Assembly (NCBI GenBank): GCA_026419785.1
Contig: JAODTK010001344.1
Span: 186,001 to 250,000 of the forward strand
Direction of reading: 5' to 3'
Source: Sclerodactyla briareus
Taxonomy: Eukaryota; Echinodermata; Holothuroidea; Dendrochirotida; Sclerodactylidae
DNA: 64,000 nucleotides
The translations under genes and the position numbers were made by a program. Within the stretch, counting starts at the first letter, position 1. The number at the start of each line of letters is the position of its first letter. This document shows, in pieces, positions 13,761 through 56,759 of the stretch. The notes beneath the pieces were generated by a model. It did no database searches, had not been told where the DNA came from, and saw only the letters and a list, made by a program, of their open reading frames with translations.

Positions 13761-13761
13761 T

Positions 13762-19147: not shown

Positions 19148-19244
19148 CTACTCCTCTGAGGACCTGAGGCTGTCGTTGTCTGTGTCCTCCTCCTCCGGCG
19201 CGGTCGGCTCAACCACGAGCACCGCCTCGTTACTGCTCCAAGGG
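19148..19244 (-). CDS. Acidic C-terminal exon, probable end of the HMGA-like AT-hook gene
   Basis: Read on the minus strand, CAACCCTTCTACCACAG is a good pyrimidine tract and acceptor. It opens a 97-base exon that ends in TAG at 19,148-19,150. The peptide is PWSSNEAVLVVEPTAP, then EEEDTDNDSLRSSEE: strongly acidic with Ser-Glu-Glu ends that look like casein kinase 2 sites. HMGA proteins carry exactly this kind of acidic tail after their AT-hooks, usually on a separate last exon behind a huge intron. The exon starts with one base of a split codon (phase 2), which matches the phase-2 donor of the AT-hook exon at 43,661. The frame is also open upstream to 19,345, where a second acceptor (TTCCCCTTGCTAG) exists. 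Linking this exon to the AT-hook exons 24 kb away is inference; it could end another minus-strand gene. Confidence 0.5.
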
Positions 19245-19604
19245 CTGTGGTAGAAGGGTTGACCAAACATCAAGGACAGACATATAACACACGTGTGTGT
19301 AGGTAGACAGGTCACTAGGTCAACATACTCAAGACTATGGGTTATCTAGCAAGGGGAAGACGAAACATTCCATTACCACCCGACTTTGAGACATCATTGT
19401 GTAGTCGCCACACTCCACAGAGAAATCAAAATTTGATTTGAGGACGTAATAGCTGCGGTTTTATTGTCTCGCCGGAACAAATTTCAGGAGAGACGTAGCA
19501 GATCACTTTGTATGTGTGGTGTGTTTGTGTAAGTATGTGTGGTCCCACTTTCCTTATTAGCATGATCCTTCTCCGAAAAGGTAAGACCGATTTCGATGCA
19601 TTTT

Positions 19605-19680
19605 GTATGTATATCTGTTCGCACTTTGAGAACGTCTATGACTTGGAAAAAACGCTATATAAGCATGCAGATTATTATTA
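19605..19680 (+). mobile_element. L2/SINE-type 3' tail fragment
   Basis: CACTTTGAGAACGTC followed by ACGCTATATAAGCATG and ATTATTATTA is the same 3' tail pattern as the SINE at 2.1-2.5 kb. The 5' part is not recognisable. Confidence 0.5.
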
Positions 19681-19919
19681 ACTGGGTTGAAGTGAAATAT
19701 CTGTTTTGATTTTTGGCACGAACGTCACTGAATAAGTATGGTAATTAAGCCTATTTATAAATTTATTGTTAGAGGCTATAGTTAGCAAGATTACTGAGAC
19801 CACTAGTGGTATGGTGATTTGGTGCAGCACCAGGTGCATGATATAGGTGATGAACTGATTAGATAAATAATATATTTCAGATCATATGGCTAATTCCATT
19901 GTCTAATTGCAAATTTGTC

Positions 19920-20640
19920 GATTTTCATGAACTTCTGATATGAGGTACCTTCAGTCCCAAAGCTTTGTAACAAAGATTTAGGGAATTTGGAGTCATTCAA
20001 TGTGTTACTTTTGCATAATTTATGCAAAATCTTGCAGTTTGTTGGATTTTCTCGGAACCTGGTGGGTTCTGCATTTTTTTTTTGTCATGATTCAGGTCAC
20101 TTCACTGGAGGTCATTCACATGTATAATTTTGATACTTTTGGTGTATTTCAAAGTTGTCAGATTTTTGTTAAACTGGTGGGTATGACGTACCGTTACTCT
20201 CCAACATTTTTAAACATGGACTGTAGGTCACTGGCTAACTGGAGGGGTCAGTCAGTGTGTCTATTTTGATGTTTATCCAATTTCAAGGTTTTGTTTCGTT
20301 TTCATGAAGCTTGATGGGTAGGGTCTACCTTTAATTCCCCCAAAATTTTAACACCGACTCAAGTCACTGGGGGTATTCAATGTGTATACTTGGGTTCATT
20401 CAGCAAATGTTCAGTGTTTGGATTTCCCTAAAACGTATTAGGCCCAGTGTAGTCCACCAGTAGACCCTGAGATTTTAAATGAGCAATGGGTCAATGATTG
20501 AGTATTATGTCTAATTGCATAATTTAAGCTATTTTAGTCACATTCCCATGACTTAATACTCCTTTAATGGACATGGTCAATATCAGTCCTCATGAATTTG
20601 GTCATTGACTAGTAAGCTGTTAAACTGTTTGGAATGACTT
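19920..20640 (-). repeat. Degenerate tandem repeat, unit about 130-160 bp
   Basis: Blocks such as TTGGATTTTCTCGGAACCTG, TGGGTAGGGTCTACC and ACTGGAGGTCATTCACATGT repeat four or five times. In reverse complement they carry the same wording as the insides of the Helentron-like elements (ACCAAGTTTCATGAAAATCC). This suggests an old inverted relative. Confidence 0.5.
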
Positions 20641-20644
20641 ATCA

Positions 20645-21550
20645 TGGTGACGTGATGGAAGAATCCACTTGATCTTGCAACCATGCAAGACCTGGGGGGT
20701 CTTGCCCCAGTTCTTGACCAGCTAAAATTTCATTCTGCCGAATGAGGCAAATTGTCCCATTGCCTTTTGGTATCGATACATTACAGACAAAAAACATCGT
20801 CTCCATGATAGGTCGACCAAAACAATCTGCATTGTTCTTTCATTGTCCGTTGCCAGGTGCTGTGGGACCCTTTAATTTCAAAACAACATTCACTGACTTT
20901 TCTAACCTACGTACATGTATCCTCAAATTCACAGAGCACACAGCTAGCACTCAAATCCACATCAAGACTTACGAACCTTTGACTTTGTTCCACTGGTAAA
21001 CATAGGTTTTCCGGTACTTAACCTTCAGAGGGTGTTGGGGTGTGACGAACAGGAAACCACACCGACCAACCCACTGAAAGAACTCAAAGGAGCTGGTATG
21101 TCCCCCTGTTGCACTGTCACTTTTCCCCCTATTTGTCACAATTCTGTCTATTGTTAGGGTTCACTATCTGGTGTTAAACCTACATGAGAGGGGTATTTCG
21201 GGGTGGGAGAGGATCCACCCACTAATGTTGAGTCAGCAAAAACAGAGAAATATTCCTCAACATTGATCGAGGGCGAGGCCAAGGTAATATTCCATTTAAT
21301 TCATGAGTTGAATTGTTTCACGCTATCACAGACAGAACTCAACTACTGCATTGATCGTTAATTCCATGGGACTTAAGGAATTTTATTGAATTACCCGTCC
21401 ACTGTCATAGTAAATTCCATTCCAACGTATGCTTCACACAAAAGTGTTCACACCTTTTTTAATGTCACCACATCACCGCACCTAACCCGCTAATGTATGT
21501 CATTCAAATGACGGCGATTGTGCTGGTGACAACAACTCACAACTAAGAAC
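20645..21550. other. Non-coding, no recognised feature
   Basis: An open frame at 20,742-20,999 has no recognisable protein features. Otherwise unremarkable. Confidence 0.4.
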
Positions 21551-22325
21551 ATTGTAGGGCGGGTAAACCAACCCACTGTATATCCCCGCTATTGCGCATA
21601 TTGGGAAAAATATCTAAAACCACCACATAAACCCCCCCTTTTTGGTCATAAAACTCAGATAAACTTTCATCTAGCCCAAGTTTTGTTGTGATTCATAGAA
21701 GTTTAATAATAGGCCAATGATTATGCAAATTTGACACACCTTGCTTTGTATGGACTTCTTCTATCTTTCTAACTTGTGAGGAACGAATGTAGCCCCATCC
21801 ACCAAGTTTTGTTCAAATCTGACAAAGTTTTGGAAAATTGCTAAATTCAATTTCCGCAATTTGACCTTCCGATGACCTTGACATCACCTCCAATTTTTCG
21901 ATCAACTAAATTCCCCACCCACCAGGTTCGTTCAAATCTAGTAAATTTTGAAAATCTTCAAATTTTCGCAAATTTGACCTTTGATGACCTTTGAAGATAC
22001 TCCCACATTTTCGGTCAACTATAGTCCCTACCCACCAAGTTTCATTCAAATCCGACTACTTTGAAAATTCCGCTTAAATTATGCAAATTTAGCGCCCCCC
22101 ACAGCATTGCACGATGCACACTTTCTAACTCATCCGTGATTTCACTGGGGCGGACCTGTGTACCAATTTTCAGATCAATCGTGATAGGCATTGAAGAGTT
22201 ATTGCGCAAACGCCTAAGTTTCCGGCAGAGGCGGAGCCTGGGACGGCGGCGGTTGCGGTGCGTCGGCTACACACTCAAAACCATTAATATCCCCGGACAC
22301 TTCCAGTGTGGCAGGGATATAATGA
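21551..22325 (+). mobile_element. Helentron-like non-autonomous element, copy A
   Basis: The left end reads GTAGGGCGGGTAAACC and then CTGTATATCCCCGC. The right end is the hairpin CCCCGGACACTTCCAGTGTG followed by GCAGGGATATAAT at 22,287-22,323. Inside are repeated blocks about matched pairs such as CACCAAGTTTCATTCAAATC and TTTGACCTTTGATGACCTTTG. The family therefore has a short internal hairpin near the left end, a strong terminal hairpin at the right end, and a TATATCCCCGC / GCGGGGATATA inverted pair linking the two. No protein is encoded. Confidence 0.65.
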
Positions 22326-22342
22326 GGACAAATGGCAGGTCT

Positions 22343-23190
22343 GGGATACAATAGAGGGTATATAGCAGAAAATGGAAAACTTATCTATGACCCAACCCAT
22401 TGCCAATGTGATTTCCTTCGTGGAGGATTTGGTGGCCTTCAAGGTTGCAGGAGGAAAAAGGAAATAGAAAGAATCCCAATTGCCAATAAAGTGGTGACGT
22501 CACCATTAGACAACCAGGAAATTTGGTTATGCATTCATTGTTTCATTTTGTGGAAGAGTCAACATTTCAGCAGAAGTTCTGTTACTTACTTCAGGGCACT
22601 TACCGTCTGGACTTACTACAAATTACTACAAATTGCATTTCGGCCAAACGGCCCGCTTCAACCAACACCATAGACACTAAAAAAGAGTAAGCACAGAGCC
22701 AGTTACGAGGACGCAGCCATAACTAGATGGGTGCGGGCAACGGAGCTGTAACTATCATTCTTGTCGGCGGATGGTGTTCGAAACGGCAGGCGCAGGAACA
22801 TAGAGGGTATATAGACAGAGAAAATGGAAAAACTGTATCTATAGACCAAACCCCATTCCAATGTGTGTTCCTTCGTGGAGTGATTGGCTTCAAAGTTGCA
22901 GAGGAAATAGAAAGACTCCCCATTGTGCAATAACGTGTGAAGTCACCATTAGACAACACAGGGAAATGATGTTGCATCCATGTTTCATTCTGGAATGAGT
23001 CAACATCGCGACGTTCTGTTACTTACTTCAGGGCCTTACCTCTGACTTACTACAAATTGCATTTTAAGCCAAACGGCCGCTTCAACACACCTATACCACT
23101 AACATAGAGTTAAGCACAGAAACGCCAGTACGAACGCAGCCGTAATAGCTTGGTGCGGCAACGGCGCTGTACCATCATTCTTTTCGGTGT
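22343..23190. repeat. Tandem duplication (about 440 bp x 2) holding the DIRS left terminus
   Basis: Two successive copies share AGAGGGTATATAG (22,345 and 22,801), TTCCTTCGTGGAG, GTCACCATTAGACAAC, CTTACTTCAGGGC (22,585 and 23,024), the GACTTACTACAAATTGCAT block, and GTGCGGCAACGGCGCTGT-like sequence. The first half of each copy matches the inverted fragment at 1,170-1,400. The second half is the inverted terminal repeat of the DIRS element. Confidence 0.8.
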
Positions 23191-25377
23191 GTTTTGCACA
23201 GCAACCACACGGCTAATGTTATTCATCGCAGTTTTCATTGGACGCTTCTCACGCTACTTTCTGCCACTTTCAACCAGTATCAGGTGATATATTTCCTTTT
23301 GGGGTTGTGGGTTATTTCTGTAGTTAATTCAATCATTCCTGCCCATTCTTAGGATCGAAACTTTCGTTAGCGGGCCAGTGCCGGTTTGTGTGTGTGCATG
23401 TCTTGTATGGGCTTCGTTTGGGCCGACGTTTCTTCAGTGGGGGCGGGGTGTTCTCCTTCCCTCCCCGCCTGGGCTAGGTGCGTTGTGCCGTCCCGATATG
23501 TGTTATGGTTCGTTGAGCCCTCTGGGCTCTGTCCGCCCCCTTGGGCTCCGGAGGGGGTATTTCCCCCACTAGTTAGTAGAGGGTTTTCCCCCTCGAGCCT
23601 CTCGTGCTTTTTGCACTAGGGACTTCACATGTGGCTGTGGGGTTCCGTCCGTTGACTTGTGTGTTTTTCCCCGTAGTCGGGTGGTGGGCCCTCATGCGCG
23701 TAAGAGCGCTGGGCTTCTAAGGCGGTGCCTAATTTGCCATATCAATAGGCCACCCTCACGTTCCTTTTAGGATTTGATGATGCCTTGGGGTGCCATATTT
23801 GTTGATGGTCTATAGTCCGTATTTTTATTCATTATGGTCACATTCACGCATATGTCGCCCGGTTATGCGGGTATAGCTGGATAGGGGCAAACATTTTCTT
23901 TTCAGTCATGAACTGTAGCATTTTTGTTCCTCTTTCAGATGAGCCATCTTTGCGAGCGGTGACTGTTCACCGCAGTAGCTTTGGCGGCCATCCTTATTTT
24001 CACCCGTCGGGGAATTTTCCCCCCCCTAGTGGCTGGGGGGCCGTAGACCTCAGGGTGTTTGGCTTTGGGTTCCCCCTAGGGGCCTCTGACCGGTCATGCT
24101 TTTCCCTCCCCACCTTCCCTAGGTAAGGGGGGGGGATGGGCATTTACCGTTTCGTGCAAATTCAGGTTGGGCACTATATTCAGTTAACGGTAAGCCCTAG
24201 GGGGTACAAAGTTGCCACCTGCTTTCAGCGTAGGGAGCAGGGGGGTCATTGTTGGACACCTCGGGCTGCTAGAGGGTCCCTTGACCTATTTCGAGTACAT
24301 TGTCTTTGTAGAGTGCTTATTTGAGTACATTACCTGATTTTACTACTCTGGTTGTCGTTTGCTTGTTTACAGATCTGTAAGACGAAGCGCATTAGTTACA
24401 AGGTCCTCGAGCCAACGCACTCCCGCAAGGAATCAAGAGGTCCTCCCATTTTACTGCGGCGTCGGCGTCGCGTGCGCTCAAAATCAACGCTTGGTGGGGA
24501 TCATCCGGTCCCCCCGTTCTCGGGCGCGTCCGGAACCTTGCGCCTTGTCTTCCTTCTCCCTCCACTGCTGGCTCCCTGTTGGGTCCGCAGTAATGGGGGG
24601 ATGAGCGCCCTGCGTGGGGCTGAGTCTTCGGTGGTGACGGTCACTTCGTTGAAGGGCCACGGCTTAATACCTCTGCACCCACCGCGTTTCTGGGACCATT
24701 GCGATCCCTCTGGGACCTCGGTGTCTCAGGTCCCCCCCCTCCTTCTCCCTTCCACCCAGGCGACCGTGATTCGTCGGCCTGGGTGGGGGGAATGAGGGTC
24801 CTGCGGGACCGCTGTTTTTAGAGACGACGAGTCGGCGCTGCGGTCACCTTTTCCGTCGTCCCTGTCCCTAACCGGGGTAGGGCCGGCCCCCCGCGTGTCG
24901 GGTTCTGGCTAAGCACCCCCCATCGGACCAGTTGGCTCTGCTGGGGGTGGCACGGACCCCTGGGAACGTTCCAGGGACGTTCTTCCAATGGGGGGATGGG
25001 TTCATGGGGAGCTCCACAGCCATATGTTTATGCGCCGTCCTCCCGATCCATTCGGTCCGTCAGCCTGGTAACGTGTTCAGGGCCGTCCACAGGGGACGAT
25101 CGGGACGTAGTCACTGTTAGGGCCCCCACCCAGTTGGATCTCACGTCGGTCGTCCCGTACGCGGCACCGTCATGGGAGCACGCCGGGGTTTTGGGGGCGA
25201 TGCCCCCTGGGCTGCAGCCCAGACAAACATCGCGACAGGTTCTCCCGCTTGGGTCTCTGCGGGGATGACCCACCCCCCTCCTGGCGATGCTGGTAACCTC
25301 GGTCAGAGACCTCGTGACGGGTCGGAGTTTTTGTTTGTCGTCCCTCTTCTATCCCCCCAGACTACAAAAGAACCCCG
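23190..25377 (+). other. DIRS 5' internal region, no supported coding
   Basis: GC-rich DNA between the left terminus and the first gag-like copy. Several open frames of 60-150 codons are proline/serine/arginine-rich and reflect base composition. I cannot identify a domain or a start. Confidence 0.5.
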
Positions 25378-28300
25378 TCTGTGCGACGGGAAAACGGGTC
25401 CCCCCCCCTGCTCCGTCCTCGGATGAGGAAGAGCAACCCCCTCCCTCGTAGTCCTAAGCCAAGAAAACGCGATTCTCAGGGGGCACTTAGCCTCCACGTT
25501 GGAAGCCCTTCAGTCCCTGAGCGGCGGTGGTGGCTCAAGGGCTGTCACGCCCTGAGTTGACGGGCCTCTCCGCCGGGGACCGGGGGTTCGCTGGGCCCCC
25601 TCCCCCCCTCGACAACACCCGGAACCTCCCGCGAGCCGGATGGTTTTCATTGTCCGGGGGGTGTGTTCCGGTCCCCTACGTCTCCACCTGTTGTTCATGC
25701 GACGGAGCCGCCGTGAGAGACAGACGTCGATCTTCCCCCGCCGGTCCACGAGCCGGAGATCGCCACGTGCACGCATCCGCCGGTTTTTTGGGTCAGGGTC
25801 GGACGCCTCCGTCTTCGCGCAGAATCTCCTGCCCCCTCCGGTTGAGGGGTGCCCGTCGGGCCAGGAGTCCCCTTTCAGTCGACGGACGAGCCACCCGTTA
25901 CGGGCCTCGTTGAGGCAGACGACGCTGCGGCGGTGGCGGTACTGGCTCGGGCTTTTCCCTGGATTTGTCAAAGACCCAGGAGGCCACGACGGAGGACCCG
26001 ACAGGCTGGGCGCATTTGGACCAGCCGGATCCGCCCCCGCCCGCTCCTACCCTCCCTATGCCGCTGGACTTGTTCCAGATTCCAGCTGGGGGCCGGGCAG
26101 TCCCCCTCGAGGTCCCACATCGGGAGGAACCCGACCGCCTTCATTCCGAGTACCAGGCACAGTACGATGCCATCCGCGTCCCTCCCCTGGCCGCTGGAGG
26201 CCTGGGACAGGCTGGTCCTGTCGGGGAGGAGTCGGTTCTTTCTCCCGGCCAAGAGGGTGGAGGCCTTCGCTTCCGTCTGAAGGATCGGCCCCAGGTGGAC
26301 CGATAACCCGCTCTCCGGTTTTCTTGACCGTGCAGGCGAGATTCGGTCTCAAGTCGCCGCGGCTCTCCAGCTTTCTTAGCGGATGGTTCGCCCACGTGAC
26401 GCCGTCGGCAGACGCCTCCGGCGGGAGGTGATAGCGAATCCAGTCGGCGGTTTTACTAGACTGGCTGTGATCAGTTCGCCCTCATTGCGGTCAAGGCAAC
26501 ATCATCGCGGCAGAGATGTGTCCCTTCCGACGGAAAACGGGTCCCCCCCTCCGTCGTTCTCGTATGAGGAATAGAGAGGCAACCCCCTCCTCGGATCCCG
26601 TAAGCCTACGAAGAAGCGCGATGCTTCAGGGGGGCAATTGCTTCCACGTTGGAAGCTCTTCAGTCCCTGAACGGCGGTGGTTTTTTGGCTCAAGGGCTGT
26701 CCACGCCCAGAGTTGACGAGCCTCTCCGCCCGGGGACCGGGGTTCCGCTGGTCCCCTCCCCCCTCCTCGACCCACCGGACACTCCCACGCGAGCCGGATG
26801 TTTTTTTCAAGTGTCTCCGGTTGTTCCTCCCCTTACGTCTCCCCCTGTTGTTCAGCCGGCGACGGAGCCGTCGAGGGAGACAGACGTCGACTTCCCCCCG
26901 CCGGTCCTCGAACCGGAGATCGACGTGCACGCATTTGACCGTTGGTCAGGGTCGGACGCTCCGTCTTCGCCGGCAGAATCTTCCTGCCCTCCGTTGAGGG
27001 GGGCCCCCGTCCGGGCCATGGGGGAAGGATCCCCTTCCGTCGACGAGAGCCACCCGTTTCGGGCCTCGTTGAGGCAGACTACGCTGCGCCGGTGACGGAA
27101 CTGGCTCGGGCTTTTTCTCCCTGACTTTTCTAAGACCCAGGAGGCCACGACGGAGGACCCGACAGGCTGGGCGCGTTTCGACATAACCGGGATCCGCCAC
27201 CGCCCGCTCCTACCCTCGCTATGCCCCTGGACGTGTTCCAGATTTTCCATGCTAGGGCCGGGAAGTCCCTGTCGAGGGTCCCACACGCGGGATGACCCGC
27301 CTCAGTCGAGTACCCCAGGCAATTACGATGCCATCCTCCGTTCCCCTCCCCTGCCGCGTAGGCCGTGGGAACAGGCTGGTCCTGGCGGGGAGGGCGTCGT
27401 TCTCCCGGCCAAGGAGGGGGAAGGCCGTCCTTCCGTCTGAAGGATCGGCCCCAGGTGGGACCGAGACGCCGATCTCCGGTTTTTCTGCCCGTGCAGCGAG
27501 ATTCATTATCACGGTCTCGGCTCTCCAGCTATTCTTAGGCGGAGTGGTTCGCCCTGGTGGCGCCGTCGGCAGACTCCTCCCTGCGGGAGGTGATGCCGAG
27601 AGTCCCGTTCGGCGGTTACTAGACTGGCCTGTGATCAGTTCGCCCGCAGCATTGCCCGTCAAGGCAACATCATCGCGGCAAGCGATGTGTCCTGCCGACG
27701 GGAAAACGGGGTCCCCCCCTCCGTCGTTCTCGATAGGAAGAGGAAGTAGCAACCCCCTCCTCGTAAGTCCGTAAGCAGAAGCGCGATGCTTCAGGGGGGC
27801 AATTAGTTCCACGTTGGAACTCCTCAGTCCCTGACGGCGGTGTTGGCTCAAGGGCTGTCCACGCCCGGAGTGGACGAGCATCTCCGCCCGGGGACCGTGG
27901 GTCGCTGGTCCACCTCCCCCTCCTCCTAACAACACCAGACCCTCCCGCGAGCTGGGATGGTTTCCAGTGTCGCGGTGTGTTCCCCCCGTCGGCTCCGTCT
28001 GTTGTTCAGGCGACGAGAGCCGTCCAGGGAGACAGACGTCGATTTTCCCCCGCCGGTCCTCGACCGTAGATTCGACGTGCACTCATCCGACCGTGGTCAG
28101 GGTCGGACGCTCCATCATTCGACGGCAGGAATCTCCCTGCCCCCTCCTGTTGTAGGGGGGCCCGTCGGGCAGAAGTCCCTTCATCGACTTGAAGAGCCAC
28201 CCGTTACGGGCCTCTTTGAGGCAGACTACACTGGGGCGGTGACGGACTGGCTCGGGCTTTCTCCCTGTACTTGTCTAAGACCCCGAGGCCGCGACGGAGG

Positions 28301-28850
28301 ACCCGACAGGCTGGGCGTGTTTGGACACAGCACCGGAATCCCCATCCGCCCGCTCCTACCCTCCATATGCCGCTGGACGTTTTCCAAATTTTCCAGGCTA
28401 GGGCCGGGACGTCCCCTCGAGCGTCCACGCGGGAGGACCGCCTCATTCCGAGTACCCCAGGCATAGTACGATGCCATCCTCCGTTCCCCTCCCATGCCGC
28501 TGGAGACGTGGGACAGGTTGGTCCTAACAAACTGTCGGGGAGGGCGCGGTTCTCCCGGCCAAGGAGGGGGGGGGAAGGCCTTCCTTCTGTCTGAAGGATC
28601 GCCCCCAGGCGGACCGAGATGCCGATCTCCATTTTTTTGACCGTGCAGCGAGAATCGGTATCAAGGTCTCGGCTGCTCACAGCTTTTTCTTAGCGGAGTG
28701 GTCGCCCATGACCGTCGGCAGACCCCTACCTGCGGGAGGTGATGGCGTGAGTCCAGTCGGCGGTTATTAGACTGGCCTAGTGATCAGTTCACCCGCATTG
28801 CTGTCAAGGCACCGTCATTGCGTCGGAGAGTGTCCTGCCGGACCGAACCT
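25378..28850 (+). pseudogene. DIRS gag-like region in three tandem copies of about 1.15 kb
   Basis: Three head-to-tail copies are marked by GACGGGAAAACGGGTCCCCC (25,387; 26,534; 27,700 with small changes). A second marker is GATCAGTTCGCCC followed by TCAAGGCAACATCATCGCGG (26,470; 27,633; a diverged third at 28,780). Spacing is 1,147-1,166 bases. Broken translations repeat in each copy, for example PSFSYEEEEATPSS-like, SREISVDF-like, ALQLFLAEWFAHV and CDQFALIAVKA. By position this is the gag-like first reading frame of a DIRS element. No zinc knuckle was seen. The last copy runs directly into the RT segment, which suggests the ancestral element had one unit and two were added. Confidence 0.7.
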
Positions 28851-28859
28851 TCTCCGCTC

Positions 28860-30760
28860 GCCGCTGGCGAACGCCAGAGCGCCCCTATTTTGGGGCCCCG
28901 ACCTCCTCGGAGCCTGTTTTCCCCCTGGGTGGAGACGTACCGGAGGACGGCGGACGTGTCTGCCCGAAGAGGACATTCTCTGGTCAGAAAAGCGCCACGC
29001 GCGGGGAGCGCTCAGGCGTCTCGGCCCTACCGGAGGGCGGGGGGTGCCCCGAGGAACCCGGCCAGGCGTTCCGGCAGCCCCAGGGGGGGCGCGTCATTCT
29101 CCCGCCGTGCAAGAGGAGGAGTGTTTCCAGCCAGCCGCGGGGGTAATGACTACCGGCCCCCTGTCCCGGAACACCCCAGGAGGACCCCACCGTGGGGGCT
29201 CTCTCCGGGACTTGCGGGGGCGTGGCCTCTGTCACCTCGGACCAGGTGGATCCCTGGCCGCGCTCTCCCAGGGGTATCGCCTGGAGTTTACGTCGCCTCC
29301 CCCCGATCTCCGGGCGTTTTCGGGCTCCGGTCCCGCGGGACTGTCCCAGGCGTCGGGTTGGAGAGGGAGATCGAAACCCTTTTGGCCAAGTGGGCCATTC
29401 CGCCCCGTCCTCCCGCAGGAAGTGCCACGGTTGTGGCGTCTTTTTTCCTGGTGCCCAAGAGGGACGGTTGGCGGCCGATTTTGAACCTGCGCCCTCTCAA
29501 CCGTTTTCGTTCCGCCCACCCCTTCCGCATGAACACTAGCGGTGGATTTTCAAACCCTGCGGAGGGGTCCCTGGGCGACGTCGTAGCCTAGCGGATGCAA
29601 CTTGCCATATCCCGTCAGGGGAGGATTCCTTCTTCCTATGCTTCCGCTAGACACCGCTTCCTCCTACCGATTTTCCAGTCTCCCGTTTTGGGTTGTGGAC
29701 GGCGCCCCGTGTGTTTTACACGGTCCCAAGGGCCATGGTGCCCATTTGCGTCGTCAGGGGGTCCAGACCTTCACTTATCTGGACGCCTGGCTTATCGTGG
29801 GGGACTCCGCGGCGGAGTTCATAGGAGCCCCTCACGGTTTTGGACGGGCGCGAGCCTGGGATGGCTCTCAACTTTTGCCAAGTCCAACCTGCGACCGTCC
29901 CCGCAGATCGTTACTGGGTCGCAGATCGATCTAGCGGTTCGGGGTGCCACCCCCCACCCTAGGGGACTGGAAGCCCTGCAAGCCGGGTGTCGGCTATTTC
30001 AGGGCTGAACTCTCCCTGCGCGGGGGCGTGCTGTTGCTCCTCGCTTCATGGCGAGCCAGTGGACCTGGTTTCCCTATTGCCGGCCTGTACATGTGCCCCC
30101 TCCAGATCCCCCTCTTGGCTTTTTTCGCCCGTCGTCTCGGGATCATGTCGACGCCAGGTGCCGTGGCAGCCACGCCTGGACCCGATAATCCGTTGGTGGC
30201 TGAACAGGGACAACTTCATGCGGGTGTGTACGGTCCCGCCTTCCCGTCCAACTTTGCCTAACGTCGGGTACGCCCACTGGAGGGCTGGGGGGCGTCACCC
30301 CCGGAGTCGCGTTGGCTCATGTGGGAATCGGAGTTTACGGGGGACCCACATACACGTGCCTTGATTCCGCGCGTTTAAACTCTGCAACGAGAGTGGGCGG
30401 CCGCGTTCGCTGGAGGCTGCTGGTCCGTGACCTGGGACCGTCCAGTGGTGCCGCGCGCCACGGAGTGCGCCTTCAGCGGTTCCCTTCCGGTTCTCAGTAC
30501 TCCATCGCAGACGCGCTCTCCGCGCATCACTCAGCTCCGCCGGAGTGGGTCTCTTCACGTCGGAGTGTGTCAGTCATTGTTCGAGGCGTTTCAATCGTCC
30601 GGAGGTGGACCTGTTGCATCGCCTCTCAACGCAATCTGCCGGGTGCTGCTTCTGCACTCGTCCGATCGAGGGCGCCTGGGCCGGTCCGATGCCTGGCCCT
30701 CGATTGGGCCTTTCTCACGGGTAACGCCTTCCGCCGTTTCTTCTAGTCGGACCAGGGTGC
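28860..30760 (+). pseudogene. DIRS reverse transcriptase / RNase H, frameshifted
   Basis: Reverse transcriptase blocks appear in order: REIETLLAKWAIPP, FFLVPKRDG, RPILNLRPLNRF (about 29,370-29,510), HIPV with SSLPF (29,605-29,680), LRRQGVQTFTYLDAWLI (about 29,740-29,795), then KSNLRP. The RNase H side shows YINREGG-type remnants, a GSQYSIADALS block (near 30,500) and LHVGVCQSLFEAFQSSGG. These match DIRS polymerases (HIPGxxNxxADxLSR, then EWxLxPxVFxxL). The catalytic YLDD motif reads YLDA at 29,776-29,787. At least six frame changes are needed to follow the protein, so it is inactive. It follows the gag repeats without a gap. Confidence 0.8.
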
Positions 30761-30769
30761 GAGAGGGTG

Positions 30770-31880
30770 GCGAGCCGTGTTGGGTCTCCTGATAGCGCTT
30801 TTTGGTCGCCCAAGCGTGGTCCGGCCACTCCTGGCGTTGCTGGCGGTGGTCCGCGGATTCTTCCCTGTTATCGGACCTCCTGTGCATTCCGGGTCTGGAC
30901 GCGCCACCCTCACCAGAGGCTCTGGCGCCTGGTTGCGGGCCCTGTCAGGGAATTCCTCCCGAGCGTCCGGCCTTTCGAAGGAGGCTGCCGCGATGGCGGC
31001 CCGGGGTCGGAGAGATTCCCCCTACGCCTGATGATTCGGACTCGGATTGTACAGAGGGTTGTGGCGATCGCCAGTTTCTCCGGCCACGTCCCCTGTCGGG
31101 GAGGTGGCCGATTTCTCCTCTACTTGTTCCGTTTAGGGGGCGGCAAGTGAACACGATCCCGGGTTAAACCGCTCCGCTGTTTGCGGCTATACATAGCATA
31201 TCGGGGATGGATCAACGGTGTTCTTCTGCGAAGCCACTGACCCCTCCTCGTATCATGTTCTTGGATCGTCCTAGAGTTCGCACTCTTCGTTCCTCCCCTG
31301 GGGATATGGGGGACGTCCTGCGGTTACTAGCGGAGCCTCCCATTGATCTGCTAGCGGACTGCTCTATGCCGCAGCTGTTGGTTGAGATAGCGTTCCTTCT
31401 TGCGGCGGCATCAGCTCGGCGCCATAGTGCATTGCATGCTTTGCACCCTCCGGCCATAATGCGTTTTGAGCGCACGGGTCCCGCCTGGTCCGGACGCCGA
31501 CGTTTCCTCACTAAAACGCAGTCGGTCAATTTTCTTCCCGGCTCCGTTTCATCCTGCTATTGGGGAGTTCTCGGGAGGAGGGGGAAAGGTGTGGATACGG
31601 TGTGGTGTCCGGTTCGGGCCCTGTGGGTTTACTGGATCGGACCCGTCCCTCCTGTGTCCGTGTCAAACGTCGCTGTTTGTGTATCTCGCAGCGACCTAAT
31701 ACACGCAATTCTCCAGCCTGCGGGATGGAAATCTCAGAATACCTTTATCCGGCTTCATACCTTCAGGACCCCCTGCGGAGTGAATCCCGCCGGGCCACGC
31801 TTTACTCCTGCGGGGGGGTCTTCGGTTCGGGTCCGCGTCTGCGGTGGCCCTCGCGTCAGGGGGCCACTGGCATCTAGGTA
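30770..31880 (+). pseudogene. DIRS tyrosine recombinase, frameshifted
   Basis: The best part lies at 31,207-31,640. MGDVLRLLAEPPIDLLADCS is followed by the helix carrying the first catalytic arginine (FLLAAASARRHSALHAL, 31,408-31,440), RFLTKTQSVNFLP and CPVRALWVY (31,606 onward). These correspond to the core of DIRS/Ngaro YR enzymes, which cut and rejoin DNA through a tyrosine to insert circular element DNA. Downstream frames carry ISEYLYPASYLQD and HTFRTP, the latter perhaps a remnant of the HxxR box. The catalytic tyrosine could not be placed. Frame breaks make it a pseudogene. It occupies the normal last coding position of the element. Confidence 0.75.
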
Positions 31881-32139
31881 AGCGTCGGCTTTGCGCCCCA
31901 CCCCCTTCCCCACACCGCGGCCTACGCTCGTTGAGAAGTGTGTGTAGGGCTGTGGCTGGGGGGGGGGGGGCTCGCGGGACATCCTGGCCTGTGAGGGTGG
32001 AGGGTTTGACACGCTCGGATGTTGGAGTATGGTGTGACTACGGAGCGCGGTACTCAGACGTTCCTTTCTTATGGTGAGGGGTCTTATTCCAGTTGGATTA
32101 ATTCGCTCCACGGCTTTCACCATCTCCTTGCGGGGGGAG

Positions 32140-32500: not shown

Positions 32501-32570
32501 ATCAACACTCCCAATGACACTACAGCAATACTCTCATAGACTAAATGCTTTTCGAAGTAAGTTGAAACTG

Positions 32571-33187: not shown

Positions 33188-33387
33188 CTTTCTAAGGCTC
33201 CAACTTTAAAACAGGGGAAAAGTAATGTGAAGTCTGGTTTAGATATTTTCTTTATTTTAGAGCTCAGTCGTCAAGCCTCATAGACCGTCATCCCTGCAGC
33301 TACCTTGCCTTCTTGAGGCAAAGTTTATCATTATTAAACAAGCTGAAAAGGGGGCCTGAGACTAGTGTCGACATGTATAAACTAGAC

Positions 33388-34844: not shown

Positions 34845-34849
34845 ATAGT

Positions 34850-39461: not shown

Positions 39462-39530
39462 TCACTTTTGTGGAGATTGCCTGATCCTTCGGCCTGCCTT
39501 TCCCGCTTTGTGGAGAATTTTCCTGACAAA
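39462..39530 (-). CDS. Possible alternative last exon of the AT-hook gene
   Basis: On the minus strand a long pyrimidine tract (TTCTTCTCTGGTCCTTTTCAG) opens a 69-base segment that starts in phase 0 and ends in TGA at 39,462-39,464. The peptide FVRKILHKAGKAGRRIRQSP, then QK, is short and very basic, but it has no true RGRP core. The phase fits a direct join from the donor of the exon at 44,719, not from the exon at 43,661. I therefore offer it as a possible alternative 3' end, less certain than the AT-hook exons. A chance pyrimidine tract plus short open frame is a real alternative. Confidence 0.35.
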   Translation of the reverse strand, partial: FVRKILHKAGKAGRRIRQSPQK

Positions 39531-44718: not shown

Positions 44719-44781
44719 CACTGTAGATTTCTTCTTTTTGCCCTTCGGCCTTCCCCTTCCTGGGCCCAGTCCGAGCAATGC
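44719..44781 (-). CDS. AT-hook exon 3 of HMGA-like gene
   Basis: This is the cleanest exon. On the minus strand a strong tract (TTTCTTTTCCTTTTCTATCT, then TGTAG) is followed by exactly 21 codons and then a GTAAGA donor. The peptide is ALLGLGPGRGRPKGKKKKST plus V. The GRGRPKGKKKK core is an AT-hook with a lysine cluster. Both borders are phase 0, so the exon can be skipped or duplicated without breaking frame, as in HMGA genes, where each hook sits on its own exon. It lies 4 kb downstream of hook 2 in the direction of transcription. Confidence 0.8.
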
Positions 44782-44784
44782 CTA

Positions 44785-46175: not shown

Positions 46176-46177
46176 TC

Positions 46178-46260
46178 ACAGGCCTTTAGCCGGGGGGTCA
46201 AAGTGCTTGAACAACCACCCCTAATTGCGAAAGGTCCGATTCCCAGCCCTTTACCAGAAA
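46178..46260 (+). mobile_element. tRNA-like SINE head
   Basis: TTTAGCCGGGGGGTCAAAGTG (A box) and GGTCCGATTCCCA (B box, near 46,229) sit at tRNA spacing with a D-arm-like and anticodon-arm-like middle. No recognisable 3' body follows. Confidence 0.5.
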
Positions 46261-47815: not shown

Positions 47816-48385
47816 GTTCCCTTGTCTAAACACCACACTACCACCCTAGTATGATGAAACCAAGACAAGATTGAACCTGGACTCTTGGAACAGGAATTTG
47901 AATGTTTTTTGCCTCATCAGCCATTTCACTCTATACCCCAGAATGACCTATTCAATCAGCGGTTTTCGCAGAAAAACAAGCGCATCCAGAGTTGGTTATG
48001 TAGCTGGGGATTCGGACATATCCACACACTATGGGCGCGGGCTTATAGCAGAACACAACGCTAATTACATGATGCTTATGTGCTATTGATGATGACAGCT
48101 ATGTACAACTATTGATGAGAGAATCAAATAGGGCGGATTTTCTGAACAAACTCCTGCAGATATTAGGGTGAGTAATAGTCGATCGAGGTAATAACAAAGG
48201 GAATAGCCCCCTCTATTTGAAAATAGCTATACACATATCATTTGCCTTTGCATGCTGGACTGAACCGGATCTTCTGCATGCAGGCGACCAATGTCATTAT
48301 ACTAAAGCACCCATACATATGTATATGAACCTTCTTATCGATTTCTCAGGCAACTGGTAAGACTGCTACTGATTTGCAAATCTAC

Positions 48386-48454
48386 CTTTGCTTTGAAGGG
48401 ACCATAGCTCCCTTTCGGCCTCCCACGTGGCCTATTCTCTGTGGGCTCTGGTTT
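48386..48454 (-). CDS. AT-hook exon 2 of HMGA-like gene
   Basis: The minus strand shows a textbook acceptor (TTCTGCTTACCTTTCAG), 23 complete codons and a GTAGAT donor. The peptide is KPEPTENRPRGRPKGSYGP followed by FKAK. PRGRPKGS is the AT-hook. The preceding EPTEN recalls the EPTGEPSPKRPRGRPKGS context of vertebrate HMGA (from memory). The exon is phase 0 at both ends and 69 bases long. Its phase-0 start accepts the phase-0 donor of hook exon 1. The intron upstream of it contains the whole satellite-bearing Helentron-like element. Confidence 0.8.
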
Positions 48455-48459
48455 CTGAA

Positions 48460-49030
48460 AGGTAAGCAGAATTTCAAGTGTGACAACAATTATAGGGAAG
48501 GTTGGTGATGGACCCAAATCTATCCTCGTGTGTCTGTCATTAGCAGGGGATGAAGTGCCACCGTGGAGTTGCATTATACTGCATTGATGGCAATATTAGA
48601 ACCCACCCAAAGTGCTACAAACCCAAGCTAAGCCCTCGTTCAAGGTGGACCAGATTTGCGACCGTCAGGTAAGACAGAGTGCATGGTCAGGTCCAGAGTG
48701 GGAGTGGAGTCTAGTCCCCACAAAACAAGTCTCAAGTCCAAAAACGAAGATCTAACCATCCGCGGTCTCGGACACCAAGCCCTCAACATACGAGTGAGAT
48801 CTCGGGCCGGATCTCCAGCCCGAGTCGAAAGTCCCTGTCACACTTGGCTTCCAGCAGAAATTTATTGTATTACGTTCAAAACAAGCAAAATATCATAGTT
48901 AGTGGTGCATCATCCCACAAAACGAGTCTATTGTGAATGTTGCATATATCCCAATGCGAAATTTGATCAGCCCTTCTATACCGTTTGTAGTGCTCCCCAT
49001 TGGGGAAGCTCATCTCAATAGCCTTTGTTT
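48460..49030. other. Intron-like DNA, nothing recognised
   Basis: No conserved coding or repeat is visible. The open frame at 48,656-48,898 is featureless. Confidence 0.4.
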
Positions 49031-49034
49031 TGCA

Positions 49035-50685
49035 AATTGCGATGCAGCAATGCCAAAACTAATGACTTAAGCCCTAAACAACCCATGTAACTCCACCTGA
49101 ACTCCACACTGGCTCTACTGTATCCAGTCGAAGACTCAAGAACCATAATTAATTTGCAGGACAGAAAGTGGGATCACTTCCAAAGTATTTGTTTGAAAAC
49201 ATGGTAGTAGAAGATCATCAATTATTCCATTCGTCTTTGCAGGCAGCAAGCATACTGGTACCAGTTATTCACTGAAACACCGATAGCATTCTGTAGTTTG
49301 TTTACAAGCCAGCCTATTATGCCCTCTAATGACATTGACCTTACCTTGCCATGAACTACGGACCACCCCCCTAATGAACTCCTGGCTACCCCCATAGGTA
49401 CCCCAGAGAAGTCAATTGAAAACACTAACCAACATTCAAGGTATGGACCCTGATCCAACCTATTTATTCTCCTGTACAATTTAACCCCATATTCACTGAA
49501 AACACTAACAACATCAATGGTATGACCCGGATACAACCTATTATTCTCCTTACAATTTAACCCTATTAGTTCATAGCCTTTCAAAGCCATTGGTCCTAAC
49601 AGATTTCTTTCAAATCAGCACACGTGAAAAAAAACCCAGTCAAACCCCACACCCCGAGACGTGAAGGTTCTAGCAGTTGCTCCGTTGAGTTACTGGAGGT
49701 CCAATGTACTGTACTTTTGCGGAATACATATTAACTTATGCCCGAGTCACGGCGGGAAGGGTGGGGGGGAGGGAGGGGGGCTACTCTGATAGCCAATTAG
49801 CCAAAATGTCCTTGCAGGATATATCTCTCAAATGGCAACTAGAATGTCGGGCATGTAAACCGCCAGACGTATAGATACCCGCATCTCTTATTCAAGACAT
49901 TGGTGAACAGTGAACCGGACAATATTGTAGAAAGAGACATTTATAGACTTGTGAAGCAAAAATTGCGATGCAGCAATGCCAAAAACTAATATGAAATTAT
50001 GCCCACTCTAACCTAACAACCCATGTACTCAACCTGAACTCCACACTGGCTCCTACTCTCTCCAGTCGAATGACTCAAGACCATAATAATTTTCAGGACA
50101 GCAGTGATCGCTGCAGATTGTTTTGAACATGGTATTAGAATGTCACAATATTTCATCGTCTTTGCAGGCAGGCAAGCATCCTGGTACCATTATTCACTGA
50201 ATAAACAACCTATAGCATTTGTAGTTTGTGTACAAGCCAGCTATATGCCCTCTAATGACATTGACCTTACTGGCAGAACGCCTGGACACCCCCCACCATG
50301 AACTCCGGACACCCCCATAAGGTACCCCAGAGAGTTCAATGAAAACATAACCAAACATCCATGGTATGACCGGATCCAACCTATTTTTCTCTTACAATAT
50401 TTAACCCGTATTTCAATGAAAAACTAACCAACATCAATGGTATGACCCTGATCCAACCTATTTATTCTCCGTCAATTTAACCCATAATTAGGTCATTAGC
50501 CTTCAAAGACATTGTTCCTAACAGATTCTTTCAAATTCAGCAAACGTGAAAAAAACCCATATCAACATATAATTATGCAGAGTCCGGCGGGAACGGGGGG
50601 GGGGGGGGAGGGAGGTGGGGCTACTCTGATTAGCACCAATTAGCCAAAATTGTATTGAGGCTTATCTCAAATGGGCAACTAGAAA
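49035..50685. repeat. Tandem duplication of about 0.9 kb, two copies
   Basis: Markers occur twice in the same order: AATTGCGATGCAGCAATGCC (49,037 and 49,964), CTGAACTCCACACTGGCTC (49,100 and 50,035), the TATGCCCTCTAATGACATTG block (49,316 and 50,233), GGGGCTACTCTGAT and TAGCCAAAAT (49,798 and 50,641). The offset is about 840-930 bases because of internal length changes. Each copy ends in the left end of a Helentron-like element, so the duplication carried that end with it. Confidence 0.8.
49843..49960 (+). mobile_element. Helentron-like left-end fragment, copy D
   Basis: GAATGTCGGGCATGTAAACC, then GCCAGACGTATAGATACCCGC, and a body up to ACTTGTGAAGCAAA match the first 120 bases of copies E and F. 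It then stops where the second copy of the flanking duplication begins. Confidence 0.7.
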
Positions 50686-53600
50686 AATGTTGAGGCATTG
50701 TAAAACCGACCAGACGGTATATATCCCCGCCATCTCGTATTCAAGGACATTTGGTGAACGTGAGACGGACCAATATTCGTAAAAAAGAATATATTTATAG
50801 ACTTGTGAAGCGACAACGTGTACAGGTAAATGAGTGCGTCCCTAAATGAGCACAGTTATTCAAGATTGAACCACATAACCACCCGACAGAGGCAAATCGG
50901 TCGAGTCACACACAGAAGGTCAACAAATGATATCACAAGGGTGAACCATCAAGCCTTCGCAGAGATTCAATTCTCAGATATTTAGCAAAAACAACAGTTT
51001 TTTTAACCCCCTCAGTGACATCGAAGACCTTTAATGATATATGAACAGTTTTTTATGAGAAATTTCTACCTCTCCATGTGTACAGCACTCATAGGAACAT
51101 TTTGCATTCTGATGAACACACCCAGTGCTTTGCCGAAAAGTACTAAATCAGTTTTTGACCCTAAGTGACCTTTAATGATCTCAATGACATGGCGGTTTCC
51201 ATGAAAATTGTTACACTCCATGTGTGCATCCACTCATAGAAGCATATTGCGCATGCCCAAGAACATGTCCAATGTTAGTGACGAAAAAAAGGTATAAATT
51301 GAACCTGTGAACCCTTGTAACTACCAAAGGAAGGTACCGACGAAGCGGGAGTTAGTGTTTCTCTCCCATAAAGCACCACAAGCTCAATCAATATCCAAAA
51401 TAACAGTTTCTATTTTTTTTGCCCCAAACTCCTTAAATAAGCACATTTATTTTTTAAATGATTCGACCTTTACCACAGAAATCCGAAAGGAGGTTCAAAT
51501 TCAGGTAGCGGGTCACACACATGCGGTCAACAATTATATCACAATGGTGAACCATCCACGCTTCGCAAGATAGTCACTTCTCCAATTATGGCCAAAAACA
51601 GGTTTTGACCCCCTAAGTGACCTCGAATGACCTTTAATGATATGACAGATTTGATGAGAATTGTTACTCTCCATTGTGATACCTCACGCCTAGGAGCATT
51701 TGCATCTGATGAAACATACCCAGGCTATTGCCGAAAAAAAGTACTAAAATCAGTTTTGACCCCTAAGTGACCTAATGACCTTCAATGACATGGCGGCTTC
51801 TATGAAAAGTGGTACTCTCCATGTGATGCATCCACTCCTACAAGGCATATTGCATTCCAATGAACATGGTCCAATGTAGTCGAAAAAAGGTTATACAACT
51901 CTCCATGTGAGGCATTCCCACTCCTACAAAGCATATTGAATTCCATGAAAATGTCCAAGTTATTGCGAAAAAAGGTTATAAAATGAAACTGTGACCCCTT
52001 GTAACTACAAAGTAAGTTCCGATCGAAACGGGGAGTTGGTTCCTCCAATAAAGCACACAAAGCTCTATCAATATCGAAAAATAACCAGTATCTATTTTTT
52101 TTGCCGTTAACTCCTTAAAAAACACAGTTATTCAAGATTCGACCTTTACCACAGGACACTCGACAGAAGTCAAATTCAGGTCAGAGGTCACACAAATGCA
52201 GGTAACAATTATATCACAATGGTGAACATCAGCATTCGCAGAAAATTCAATTCTCCCAATATAACCAAAAAAACAGTTTTTGACCCCTAAGTGACTCGAA
52301 TGACTTAATGAGATGACAGTTGTTATGAAGAATTGTTACTCTCCAGGTGATACATCCACGCCTAGGAGGATATTGCATTCTGAGGACACACACCCAGTGC
52401 TATTGCGGAAAAAGGACTCTCTCAAAAATCATTTTTTGAAAACCTAAGTGACCTTGAATGGACCTTCAATGACAGGCGGTTTTTATGAAAACTTGGGAAC
52501 TCCGTTGATGCATCCACTCCTAGTCGCATATTGCATTCCAATTGTACCATGTCCAATGTTTATTGCCGAAAAAAGGTATTTATAAAATTGAAATTTGACC
52601 CCTTGTAACTACCAAAGTAAGAGTGTCCGACGAAGCGGGAGTGTCTCCCTCAATAAAGCACACAAAGCTATATCCATATCCAAAAAATACCCAGTTCCTA
52701 TTTCTTTGCCCGTAACTCCTTAAATAAACATTTTTCAAGATCACCCTTCAACCACATGACCACCAGACAGAGGTCAAATTCAGTTCAGAGGTCACACACA
52801 TGCATGGTCAACAATTATATCACAATGGTTAACCAGCCAGCCTTCGCAGATATTCAATTCTGGATTATAGCCAAAAAAACAGTTTTTGACCCTAAGTGAC
52901 CTCGAATGACTTAATGAATTGACAGTTTTTTATGAGAAGTTACTTCTCATGTGATCATCCATCCTAGGAGCATTTTGCATTCTGAGAAATACCAGTGCAT
53001 TGAGAAAAAAAGTACTAAAAATCAGTTTTTGACCCTAAGTGACCTTAATGACCTTCAATGACATGGCGGTGTCCATGAAATTGGTACAATCCATGTGAGC
53101 ATCCACTCCTAGAAGCTATTGCATTCCAATGAACAGGTCCAATGATATTGCGAAAAAAGGTATAAAATGACTTTGACCCCTTGTAACACCAAAAGTGTCC
53201 GATTCGAAGCGGGAGTTGTCTCCCTCCATAAGGCACACAAAGCTCTTCACATAACCAAAAATACCGGTTTCTATTTTTTGCCCGTAACCGGAAACTCCTT
53301 TAAATAAGCACATTTATTCAGAAGATTAGAACCTTTAACCACCATGACCACCGACAGAGGTCAAAGTCAGGTCAGAGGGCAAACCAATGCAGGTCAAACA
53401 TTATTATCACAAATGTGAAACCCTCAGCCTTCACAATATTCCATTCTCTGATTATAGCCAAAAAAAACAGTTTTTGACCCCTAAGTGAACCTCGAAGAAC
53501 TGTAATGATATGTGACGTTTTTATGAGAATTGTTACTCTCATGATGATACATCCAATCAGTAGGAGCATTTTGCATTAAAATGAACACACCCAGTGCATT

Positions 53601-56474
53601 GCCGAAAAAAGGACTCAAATCATTGTGACACCTAAGTGACCTTTAATGACCTTCAATGACAATCCATGGCGGTGTTTTCTGAAAAGTGGTACACTCCAGG
53701 TGATGCATCAACTCTACAAGCATATGCATTCCAAGAAAACATGTCCAATGTTATTGGAAAAAGTAGAAAATTGAACTTTTTGACCCATGTAATACCACAA
53801 AGTAAGTGTCGATGATCGAAGAGGGGAGTGGTCTCCCGCCATAAAGCACACAAAGCTCTATCACATATCCAAAAAAAACCAACAGTTCTATTTTTTGCCC
53901 GCCGTACCTCCTTAATAAGCACATTTATTCAAGTTCGACCGTTTTAACCCCACATTGACCAACCGACAAGAGGTCAAATTCAGTTCAGAGGTCACACACA
54001 TGCAGGTCAACAATATATCACAATGGTGAGCCATACAGCCTTCGCAGAAATTCAATTCTCCGATTATAACAAAAAAACAGTTTTTGACCCCCTCTAAGTG
54101 ACCTCGAATGACCTTTTAAATGATATGACAGTTTTTTAGGAGAATTGGTATCTTCCATGGATACATCCACTCCTAGGGGCATGTGCATTCGGATGAACAT
54201 ACCCAGTGCTATTGCCGAAAAAGTACTAAAATCAGTTTTGGACCCCTAAGTGACCTTTAATGACCCTTCAATGACATGGCGGCTTCCATGAAACTTGGTA
54301 CAGTCCATGTGATGCATCCACTCTACACGCATATTGCATTCCAATGTACATGTCCAATGTTATGGGAAAAAAGGGATAAAATTGAACTTTGACCTTGTAA
54401 CTACCAAAGTAAGGTCCGATCCGAAAAAAGCGGGAGTTGTTTTCCTCATAAAGCACACAAAGCTCTATCAAATATCCAAAAATCAACCCGTTTTCTATTT
54501 CTTTGCCCGTAACCCTTAAATAAGCACATTTATCAAGATGCAACCTTCAACCTTCAACATCATGACCACCAGACAGAGGCAAATCAGTCAGACGTCACAC
54601 ACATGCCGGTCAACAATTATATCACAATGTGAACCATTCCAGCCTTCGCAGATATTCAATCTTGAATTTATAGCCAAAAAAAATTTTGGACCCCGAAGTG
54701 ACCTCGAATGACCTTAATGATATAGGACAGTTTTTACTGAATCTTGTTACTCTCCATGTGATTTAATCCACCCTTGAGCATTTTGCATTCTGCGAAACAC
54801 ACACCAGTGCTATGCGAAAAAGTATAAAATCAGTTTTTGACCCTCTAGTAGTGACCCTTTAGGACCTCAATGAAATGGCGGTTCCAGAAAATTGGTACAC
54901 TCCATGTTATGCAATCACTCCTACAAGCATATTGCATTCCCAAGTGAAAATGTCCAAGTTTATTGCGAAAAAAAAGGTATAAAATGAACTTTGACCCCTT
55001 GTCAACTACCAAGTTAGTAAGAGGTCCGATCGAAGAGGGAGTTGTCTCCCTCCATAATAGCCACACAAAGCCGCTATCCACATATCCAAAAAAACCAGTT
55101 TCTATTTTTTGGGCCCGTAACTCCTTTAAATAAACACATTCATTCAAGATTCGACCTTTAACCACATGACCACTTGACAGAGGTCAAATGCAGGTGGTCA
55201 GAGGGTCACACACAGGCAGGTCAAACAAATTATATCCACAATGGTGAACCATTCCAGCCTTCGCAGATATTCAATTCCCAATTAAGGCCAAAAAACAGTT
55301 TTGGACCCCTAAGTGACCTCGAATGACCTTAATGCTACGACAGTTTTTATGAGAATTGTTACTCTCCAGATGATACTCCAACTCCTAGGAGCATTTGCAT
55401 TCTGATGAACACACCAGGGCTATTGCGAAAAAAAAAAGTACTAAAATCAGTTTTTGACCACCTTAAGGACCTTTAATGACCTTCACGGACCTGGCGGTTT
55501 TTATGAAAATTGTTACATCCAGTGTGATGCATCCACACCTAGAAGCATATTGCATTCAATGAACATGTCCAATGTTATTGCGAAAACGTATTAAACTCAG
55601 CATTTTGACTGATCAGGAGAACTAATATGCAAATTCGTCCCACAATTTACCCCTCAGTGATCTTGATGCTATTGAATACATTTATCAGGGACGGGTAGGT
55701 AGGTCCTATTCACAAACAGAAGAGTTTCGTCAAAATCCCTAAAAGTTGAGAAACTAATTGCATTATTTATTCTAATTATGATAACGAATATGTAAAATAA
55801 GCACACATAATGACCTTCAGTGATTCAACGCAATTGAATAAATTTATCGGGATCTGTTAGAAGGTCCTACTCCCTAAGTTTCGTGAGAATCCAATAAAGT
55901 TTATACATCGCCTCATTGCTAATTGGGTCACTTATGCAAATTAGTTCATGCAAGATGACCTCCCGTGACATCGGCCACATTAGGGAAAAATATCGGCACT
56001 GATAGTGGACCTATTCACCCAAGTTTCATGAAAAATCAAGAGGTTTGGAAATATCACATTACATGATGTAAATTCGGCGTACTGGCCAAAGAAAGAAAAT
56101 GCCAAAACTTGACCTCCGGATGCCTTGATGAAATTGTCGCCAGTTTTCAGCTCCAACAACTACCCACAACCACCACGGTTCGTGTAAATCGCACGAACCT
56201 GAAAATTTTGCGGGAAACCCTGCCAAATAGAGGGCAACAAAATATACGATTAGAGACATTTCGAACTTATCCAAGATTTATCATACGGGACCATGTGACC
56301 AAGTTTTGGGCAAAATCGGATAAACTGTTGAAGAATGAGAGCACTAAAGCCTAAAGTTCCAGGCCGGCGGCGGCGGAGGAAGAGCGGGACACAAACCCAC
56401 ACACCCAAACACCAAAACACAATGGCCAAAACCATAATATCCCGAACACTTACAGTGTTGCGGGGATGTATATA
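50686..56474 (+). mobile_element. Helentron-like element, copy E, enlarged by a satellite
   Basis: The left end (ATGTTGAGGCATTGTAAAACC, then ACGGTATATATCCCCGCC) and the body to GTGTACAGGTAAATG match copy F. The right part (ACTAATATGCAAATTCGTCC onward, AAATAGAGGGCA, then the hairpin CCCGAACACTTACAGTGTTG at 56,440-56,460 plus CGGGGATGTATAT) also matches F. Between them lies an array of about 4.7 kb. The element has no coding capacity. It lies in the intron between AT-hook exons 1 and 2. Confidence 0.7.
50850..55595 (+). repeat. 607-bp satellite, about eight copies, inside copy E
   Basis: The anchor CCCCTAAGTGACCTCGAATG (with variants) recurs near 50,997, 51,599, 52,276, 52,881, 53,469, 54,078, 54,685 and 55,297. 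Spacings are 588-612 apart from one of 677, which is explained by a local duplication of about 70 bases at 51,890-51,960. Each unit also has GCGGGAGTTGTCTCCCTCC, ACCACATGACCACC, CGACAGAGGTCAAA and CACACACATGCAGGTCAACA. Every ORF across it is a repeat artefact. Confidence 0.9.
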
Positions 56475-56686
56475 TTGTGCTCTGTTTCGTAAATGTAAGT
56501 TAGGTGAATGTAGGACTAATTCATGCTACCAATCGAGCATGAAATCAGGAGAAACCAATGAGCATTTAAGAACTTCTTCAAGTGCCTCGAACCAAAATTT
56601 TTGAATCTTTGGAACTTTATGTTGAAAAGAAAATGATGGTTGCTGAAACTACTTGACCAATAATAACTCTTCTGGTTTTTTCTTAC
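56475..56686. other. Intron sequence between copy E and AT-hook exon 1
   Basis: About 210 bases of ordinary DNA between the right hairpin of copy E and the exon 1 donor. No feature is recognised. Confidence 0.5.
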
Positions 56687-56759
56687 TGGTTTTCTGTTTT
56701 TGTTGGGACTCCCCTTTGGTCTTCCTCTTGGTTGGTTTTTATCTTGAGTTCTCAGTATC
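56687..56759 (-). CDS. AT-hook exon 1 (most upstream seen) of HMGA-like gene
   Basis: Minus-strand AGTTTTTAATGTTGGCAG is the acceptor and GTAAGA the donor. The peptide ILRTQDKNQPRGRPKGSPNK, then NRKP, contains the canonical AT-hook PRGRPKG with basic flanks. The 73-base exon ends in phase 0, as hook exon 2 requires, and begins with a single spare base, so the missing upstream exon should end in phase 2 unless one base is wrong here. No start-codon exon was found to the right, so the gene's 5' end is either unrecognised at 57-64 kb or beyond the window. The exon is bracketed by Helentron-like copies E and F. Confidence 0.75.

Follow-up and report, generated by a model that had tools for sequence, protein, structure and literature searches.

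HMGA1 and HMGA2 are chromatin proteins of vertebrates, and HMGA proteins are expressed in embryos and bind the minor groove of AT-rich DNA. The C-terminal end of HMGA proteins is acidic and contains serine, a character that recurs at the locus described here, and to our knowledge the exons of vertebrate HMGA2 are all in phase 0. AT-hooks, which grip DNA, are also found in insect HMGI and in Drosophila D1 (multi-hook). Human HMGA2 has five exons, and an intron of ~110 kb parts its hooks from its acidic end (PMC7279267). A second account describes an 11-residue spacer exon in HMGA2, as well as extra exons within the large intron that lead to other C-termini (PMC7038092). HMGA-like genes have been published for amphioxus, Saccoglossus, and echinoderms, and a review of them places a tryptophan (W) after hook 3 in HMGA2, amphioxus, and Saccoglossus and reports it absent in HMGA1 and in the echinoderm sequences (PMC7013770). 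Our literature search for HMGA proteins with four AT-hooks returned matches that concern myxobacteria and Theileria, and a search for AT-hook HMG proteins of starfish found none.

Here, we describe a minus-strand locus within a stretch of DNA of 64 kb (the window, in whose coordinates positions are given unless stated otherwise). The window belongs to a contig of 636 kb, and spliced genes and homeodomains mark the 319-Mb genome as presumably that of an animal. The locus is likely an HMGA-type gene (Table 1), a reading drawn from a cluster of hooks on one strand, three hook exons that join in phase, a uniquely acidic terminal exon, and a layout resembling that of HMGA2. What is new here would be a further member of the HMGA-like genes, a kind already in print for non-vertebrates. 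As in vertebrate HMGA2, separate exons encode the parts of the protein and a very large intron precedes the acidic end (PMC7279267, PMC7038092). Further, the hook RPRGRPKGS is shared with HMGA1 and HMGA2, as in the structure 2EZD. Unlike vertebrate HMGA, however, the locus has at least one additional hook-coding segment, and no start exon bearing a hook was found here; unlike vertebrate HMGA2, hook 4 and the tail are out of phase 0 with hooks 1–3. In the model that we propose, E1, E2, and E3 would form a phase-compatible set with one AT-hook per small exon, E3b and E4 would be optional exons, and a terminal exon following a large intron would encode the acidic, serine-containing tail. A single transcript would unite these exons, beginning with a first exon that is missing from Table 1 and linking E3 to the tail, and its product may act as a chromatin protein, by analogy with what is generally known of HMGA.

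Table 1. Predicted exons of the putative HMGA-type gene, in the order of the gene strand
Feature	Positions	Strand	Length	Phase in	Phase out	Sequence	Remarks
E1, hook exon	56687..56759	-	73 nt	2	0	ILRTQDKNQPRGRPKGSPNKNRKP	
E2, hook exon	48386..48454	-	69 nt	0	0	KPEPTENRPRGRPKGSYGPFKAK	
E3, hook exon	44719..44781	-	63 nt	0	0	ALLGLGPGRGRPKGKKKKSTV	
E4, hook segment	43661..43730	-	70 nt	1	2	TGGPVVKRSRGRPKGSPNKKKH	
E3b, candidate	39466..39522	-	57 nt	0	0	ENSPQSGKGRPKDQAISTK	weaker hook exon
Tail exon	19148..19244	-	97 bases	2		PWSSNEAVLVVEPTAPEEEDTDNDSLRSSEE	acidic C-terminus, TAG stop

A sequence-only reading of this DNA had put forward four minus-strand segments with RGRPKG hooks, and these were confirmed in position, length (73, 69, 63, and 70 nt), and AG/GT borders, each of E1, E2, E3, and E4 having an RGRPKG core in a frame that stays open from AG to GT. 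Its claim that hooks 1–3 join in phase 0 held as well, the frame being continuous through E1-E2-E3. The join predicted from splice signals yields 68 residues, 22 of them K/R and 3 D/E, and brings three RGRPKG cores into one frame. Splice sites were ranked with a generic matrix, against a background of every AG or GT on the minus strand of 324 kb (contig positions 66,001-390,000). By this measure E3 is the best of the five exons scored (acceptor percentile 0.1, donor 1.3), and the first base of its open frame coincides exactly with the acceptor; the corresponding values are 3.7 and 4.8 for E1, and 2.7 and 4.2 for E2. The same 324 kb contain 139 GRP places, made up of the four RGRPKG hooks and 135 others, and both splice sites rank in the top 5% at three of the four hooks, as opposed to 5 of the 135 other places.

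No in-frame ATG separates the hook of E1 from the stop that precedes it, and an exon upstream of E1 is thus needed. First exons were sought over window coordinates 56,780-130,000 by requiring an ATG with A/G at -3, a donor in the top 3%, an exit in phase 2, and polar residues making up 80% or more; only the ATGs at 67,820 and 123,796 qualified, and neither is convincing. No promoter or start exon was recognized at a GC/CpG peak near 73.5 kb, which adjoins a TG-rich stretch; a similar peak lies at ~161.8 kb. A short way upstream of E1, positions 58,803-61,636 are occupied by tandem arrays with 66/134/195-base units, 301-base units, and a CATA run.

Across six frames, the window encodes RGRPKG four times, compared with one occurrence in 200 dinucleotide shuffles (mean 0.005), and the 324 kb contain the same four and no further copy. 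At the scale of the 319-Mb genome, single matches to a degenerate RGRPKG DNA pattern carry no meaning, because the pattern has 41 matches and its reversed version 55, which is approximately the chance level; the pattern also misses other hook types, such as RGRPRK. Four pattern matches on one contig occur here only, on one strand and within 13 kb, and two further contigs have two matches each. When the protein of E1-E3 was searched against the genome, these three exons were the sole matches at E up to 0.001. The 17-mer AGGGGGAGACCGAAAGG accounts for eight of the 41 pattern matches, one on each of eight contigs, and is probably part of a repeat family. Over the eight codons of the hook, E1 and E2 differ at six, all of them silent, a pattern of codon divergence that suggests selection on the protein. 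There are five silent differences and one changing difference between E2 and E4, four silent and two changing between E3 and each other hook, and one silent and one changing between E1 and E4.

The acidic exon had been proposed to fit the phase-2 end of hook 4, and it does so, with an AG border and a TAG end; its acceptor stands at percentile 8.1 (generic matrix). When the ends of all six-frame, stop-to-stop ORFs of at least 25 residues in the 324 kb were scored for acidity, this was the only one of 8,777 whose last 16 residues include 8 or more D/E, with the threshold set on this tail itself. Being the only strongly acidic ORF end in 324 kb, and lying downstream on the same strand, it is very probably the tail of this hook gene and hardly a product of chance, although its phase does not link it to E3. 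The tail exon lies 24.4 kb from E4 and 25.5 kb from E3, and these distances, together with the exon borders, agree with the earlier expectation of hooks on separate exons and a large intron before the tail. A protein query combining E4 and the tail recovered both exons from the genome, plus a third match on C496 (E 0.22) that we judged chance-like; no second copy of the tail exon was found in the genome by this search. HMGA2 is under let-7 control through its 3' UTR; at the present locus, no let-7 7-mer (CTACCTC) was found near the end on the gene strand of window 8,000-19,300, an interval that may exceed or fall short of the 3' UTR. Three 6-mers (TACCTC) are present at 8,081, 10,117, and 10,850, all >8 kb beyond the tail.

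The large intron also includes an unrelated GC-rich block with long overlapping ORFs (window 24,300-32,000, plus strand), where 500-base windows reach 57-67% GC between 25.5 and 31.7 kb. By eye, one stretch of the block resembles the start of a reverse transcriptase; Pfam matched none of six pieces of the block (E up to 0.01).

Profile and structure searches are too weak to establish the HMGA identity, and their scores are among the points against it. The Pfam AT_hook model, which has 13 positions, is common to all AT-hook proteins, and was not taken as defining HMGA, scored 10.4 bits on E1-E3 against a cut-off of 17.4, and E4 plus tail gave no Pfam match. Among solved structures, E1-E3 alone matched none up to an E of 10. 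When part of the tail was added to the query, E2 aligned to PDB 2EZD (an HMG-I/Y peptide); this match is non-significant (E 0.17), and an unrelated ribosomal protein outranked it at E 0.16. Unlike HMGA of amphioxus and Saccoglossus (PMC7013770), there is no W directly after hook 3 at this locus. E3 ends in KKKKSTV and E3b is without W; a W does occur in the tail exon, close to where it begins (PWSS). This residue does not define the family as a whole.

The surroundings were also surveyed. Rfam had no match in the whole window, which has 46 ORFs of at least 120 residues, and Pfam had none in the eight window ORFs scanned. Three neighboring ORFs beyond these were scanned for domains: one on the plus strand (L026:4301-4963) has a SPOC match of 21.9 bits, under the cut-off of 25, and by eye we take it to be RBM15-like; one on the minus strand (L013:1510-2004) has a 7tm_1 receptor match of 44.2 bits; and the third has no match. 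An exon-by-exon search for the SelR and LLPH families as shared HMGA neighbors, a kind of search that is weak for spliced genes, gave no match in the genome, with LLPH found in 0 of 14 controls. A miR-2013 pattern had no match, which carries no information on the phylum, and COX1, read in the standard code, had none at E up to 0.001. Of 15 homeodomain matches listed for the genome, three were inspected, and one of these, an ORF on L033, looks Alx-like by eye, too little to assign a phylum.

The sequence-only reading had gone further and concluded that this is an HMGA-type gene with at least four hooks. The HMGA type is supported by the cluster, the joins, the tail, and the layout; four hooks in one protein are not supported in the form proposed, given that hook 4 is out of frame with hook 3 at the proposed borders and has weak sites. 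The exons found fall into two phase-incompatible sets, E1, E2, and E3 on one side and E4 and the tail on the other (E3 exits in phase 0, and the entry phase required is 2 for the tail and 1 for E4), and this counts against the model. The junction that had been proposed from 44,719 to 43,730 runs from phase 0 into phase 1, a mismatch on which that reading was silent, and soon stops, reading ...KSTV-TLVDQS-stop. The splice sites of E4 are the weakest among the scored exons (acceptor percentile 20.0, donor 19.4; generic matrix). Both sites rank in the top 20% at all four RGRPKG hooks, but 20 of the remaining 135 GRP places of the 324 kb (E3b among the 20) reach this level too, and the sites of E4 are thus little informative. 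Judged by its frame and borders, E4 is possibly an alternative or relic exon, an exon wrongly bounded, or one linked through an undetected exon.

We give nearly an even chance to a gene whose main transcript would run from E1 through E2 and E3 (perhaps with E3b) to the tail, by way of an undetected spacer exon leading from phase 0 to phase 2 or by another acceptor, with E4 as an alternative exon or a relic. The exon phases, the weak sites of E4, and the strong acceptor of E3b all favor this arrangement, and human HMGA2, which has a spacer exon and whose large intron holds alternative exons, offers a parallel (PMC7038092). Joined directly at the tabulated border, E3 and the tail read PLEQ-stop; a phase-0 AG inside the tail exon (AACGAG followed by GCGGTG), poor-looking and unscored, could provide the other acceptor. 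However, the spacer was not identified in the E3-to-tail interval, where 111 exon candidates have an acceptor within the top 6% and a donor within the top 8%; nearly all of the polar ones listed fall at 24.0-32.0 kb, inside the GC-rich, retroelement-like block or next to it. E3b, moreover, was chosen after the fact.

E3b itself has the core GKGRPKD, in which K replaces the first R, so that the hook would be weaker. It has tandem acceptors, with the first exon base at 39,530 (top 0.15%) or 39,522 (top 0.56%), and a donor, GTGATT, in the top 10.1%, which misses the 8% cut-off of the exon listing. It is in frame after E3 and does not fit the tail. Having been picked in hindsight, E3b is a lead only, possibly an optional fifth hook exon. 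The fuller proposal of an HMGA gene with five hook exons (E1, E2, E3, E4, and E3b) of incompatible phases, in which E4 and E3b would be alternative and splicing would determine how many hooks the protein has as well as its C-terminal end, so that hook number would be a regulated quantity, strikes us as quite improbable.

A single four-hook transcript, E1-E2-E3-E4-tail, with an undetected exon of length 3k+1 between E3 and E4, is possible but doubtful. In its favor, E4 leaves in phase 2, the phase in which the tail is entered (among the exons found, the phase of E4 fits the tail alone), and E4 has an intact hook similar to the one in E1. When E1 and E4 were compared with ~500 bases on each side, significant likeness was confined to 32 nt of the hook, at 91%, and this confinement, together with the differing phases, argues against a recent duplication of the exon. 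On the other hand, a scan of the 988-base intron for the linking exon produced just three candidates, all poor, even with permissive limits (acceptor within the top 25%, donor within the top 30%), and the splice sites of E4 are at a level that some of the other GRP places also reach, as given above. A further linking candidate of 13 nt was picked by eye, outside the scripted list.

AT-hooks are present in many unrelated proteins, and the hooks could be parts of some other chromatin protein with multiple hooks, the acidic exon being its end or that of another gene. The tail has no phase link to E1-E3, which is compatible with such an origin, but known domains were recognized in none of the window's exons, as far as the eight ORFs scanned go, and the hook context RPRGRPKGS resembles HMGA, as does the acidic end; we regard this origin as unlikely. 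Finally, that the exons are chance or dead ones with no gene behind them is very improbable in view of the shuffle and genome controls and the silent codon divergence among the hooks, even though the evidence is that of sequence alone.

The preferred reading, which we hold to be likely, is that of an HMGA-type gene with E4 and E3b as optional, relic, or wrongly bounded exons. Provided that this model is right and that the animal is an invertebrate, the HMGA plan of one hook in each tiny exon and an acidic tail beyond a very large intron would predate vertebrates, and the number of hooks would have changed in evolution. Further, with hook exons of incompatible phase, RNA sequencing could test directly whether hooks are used alternatively.
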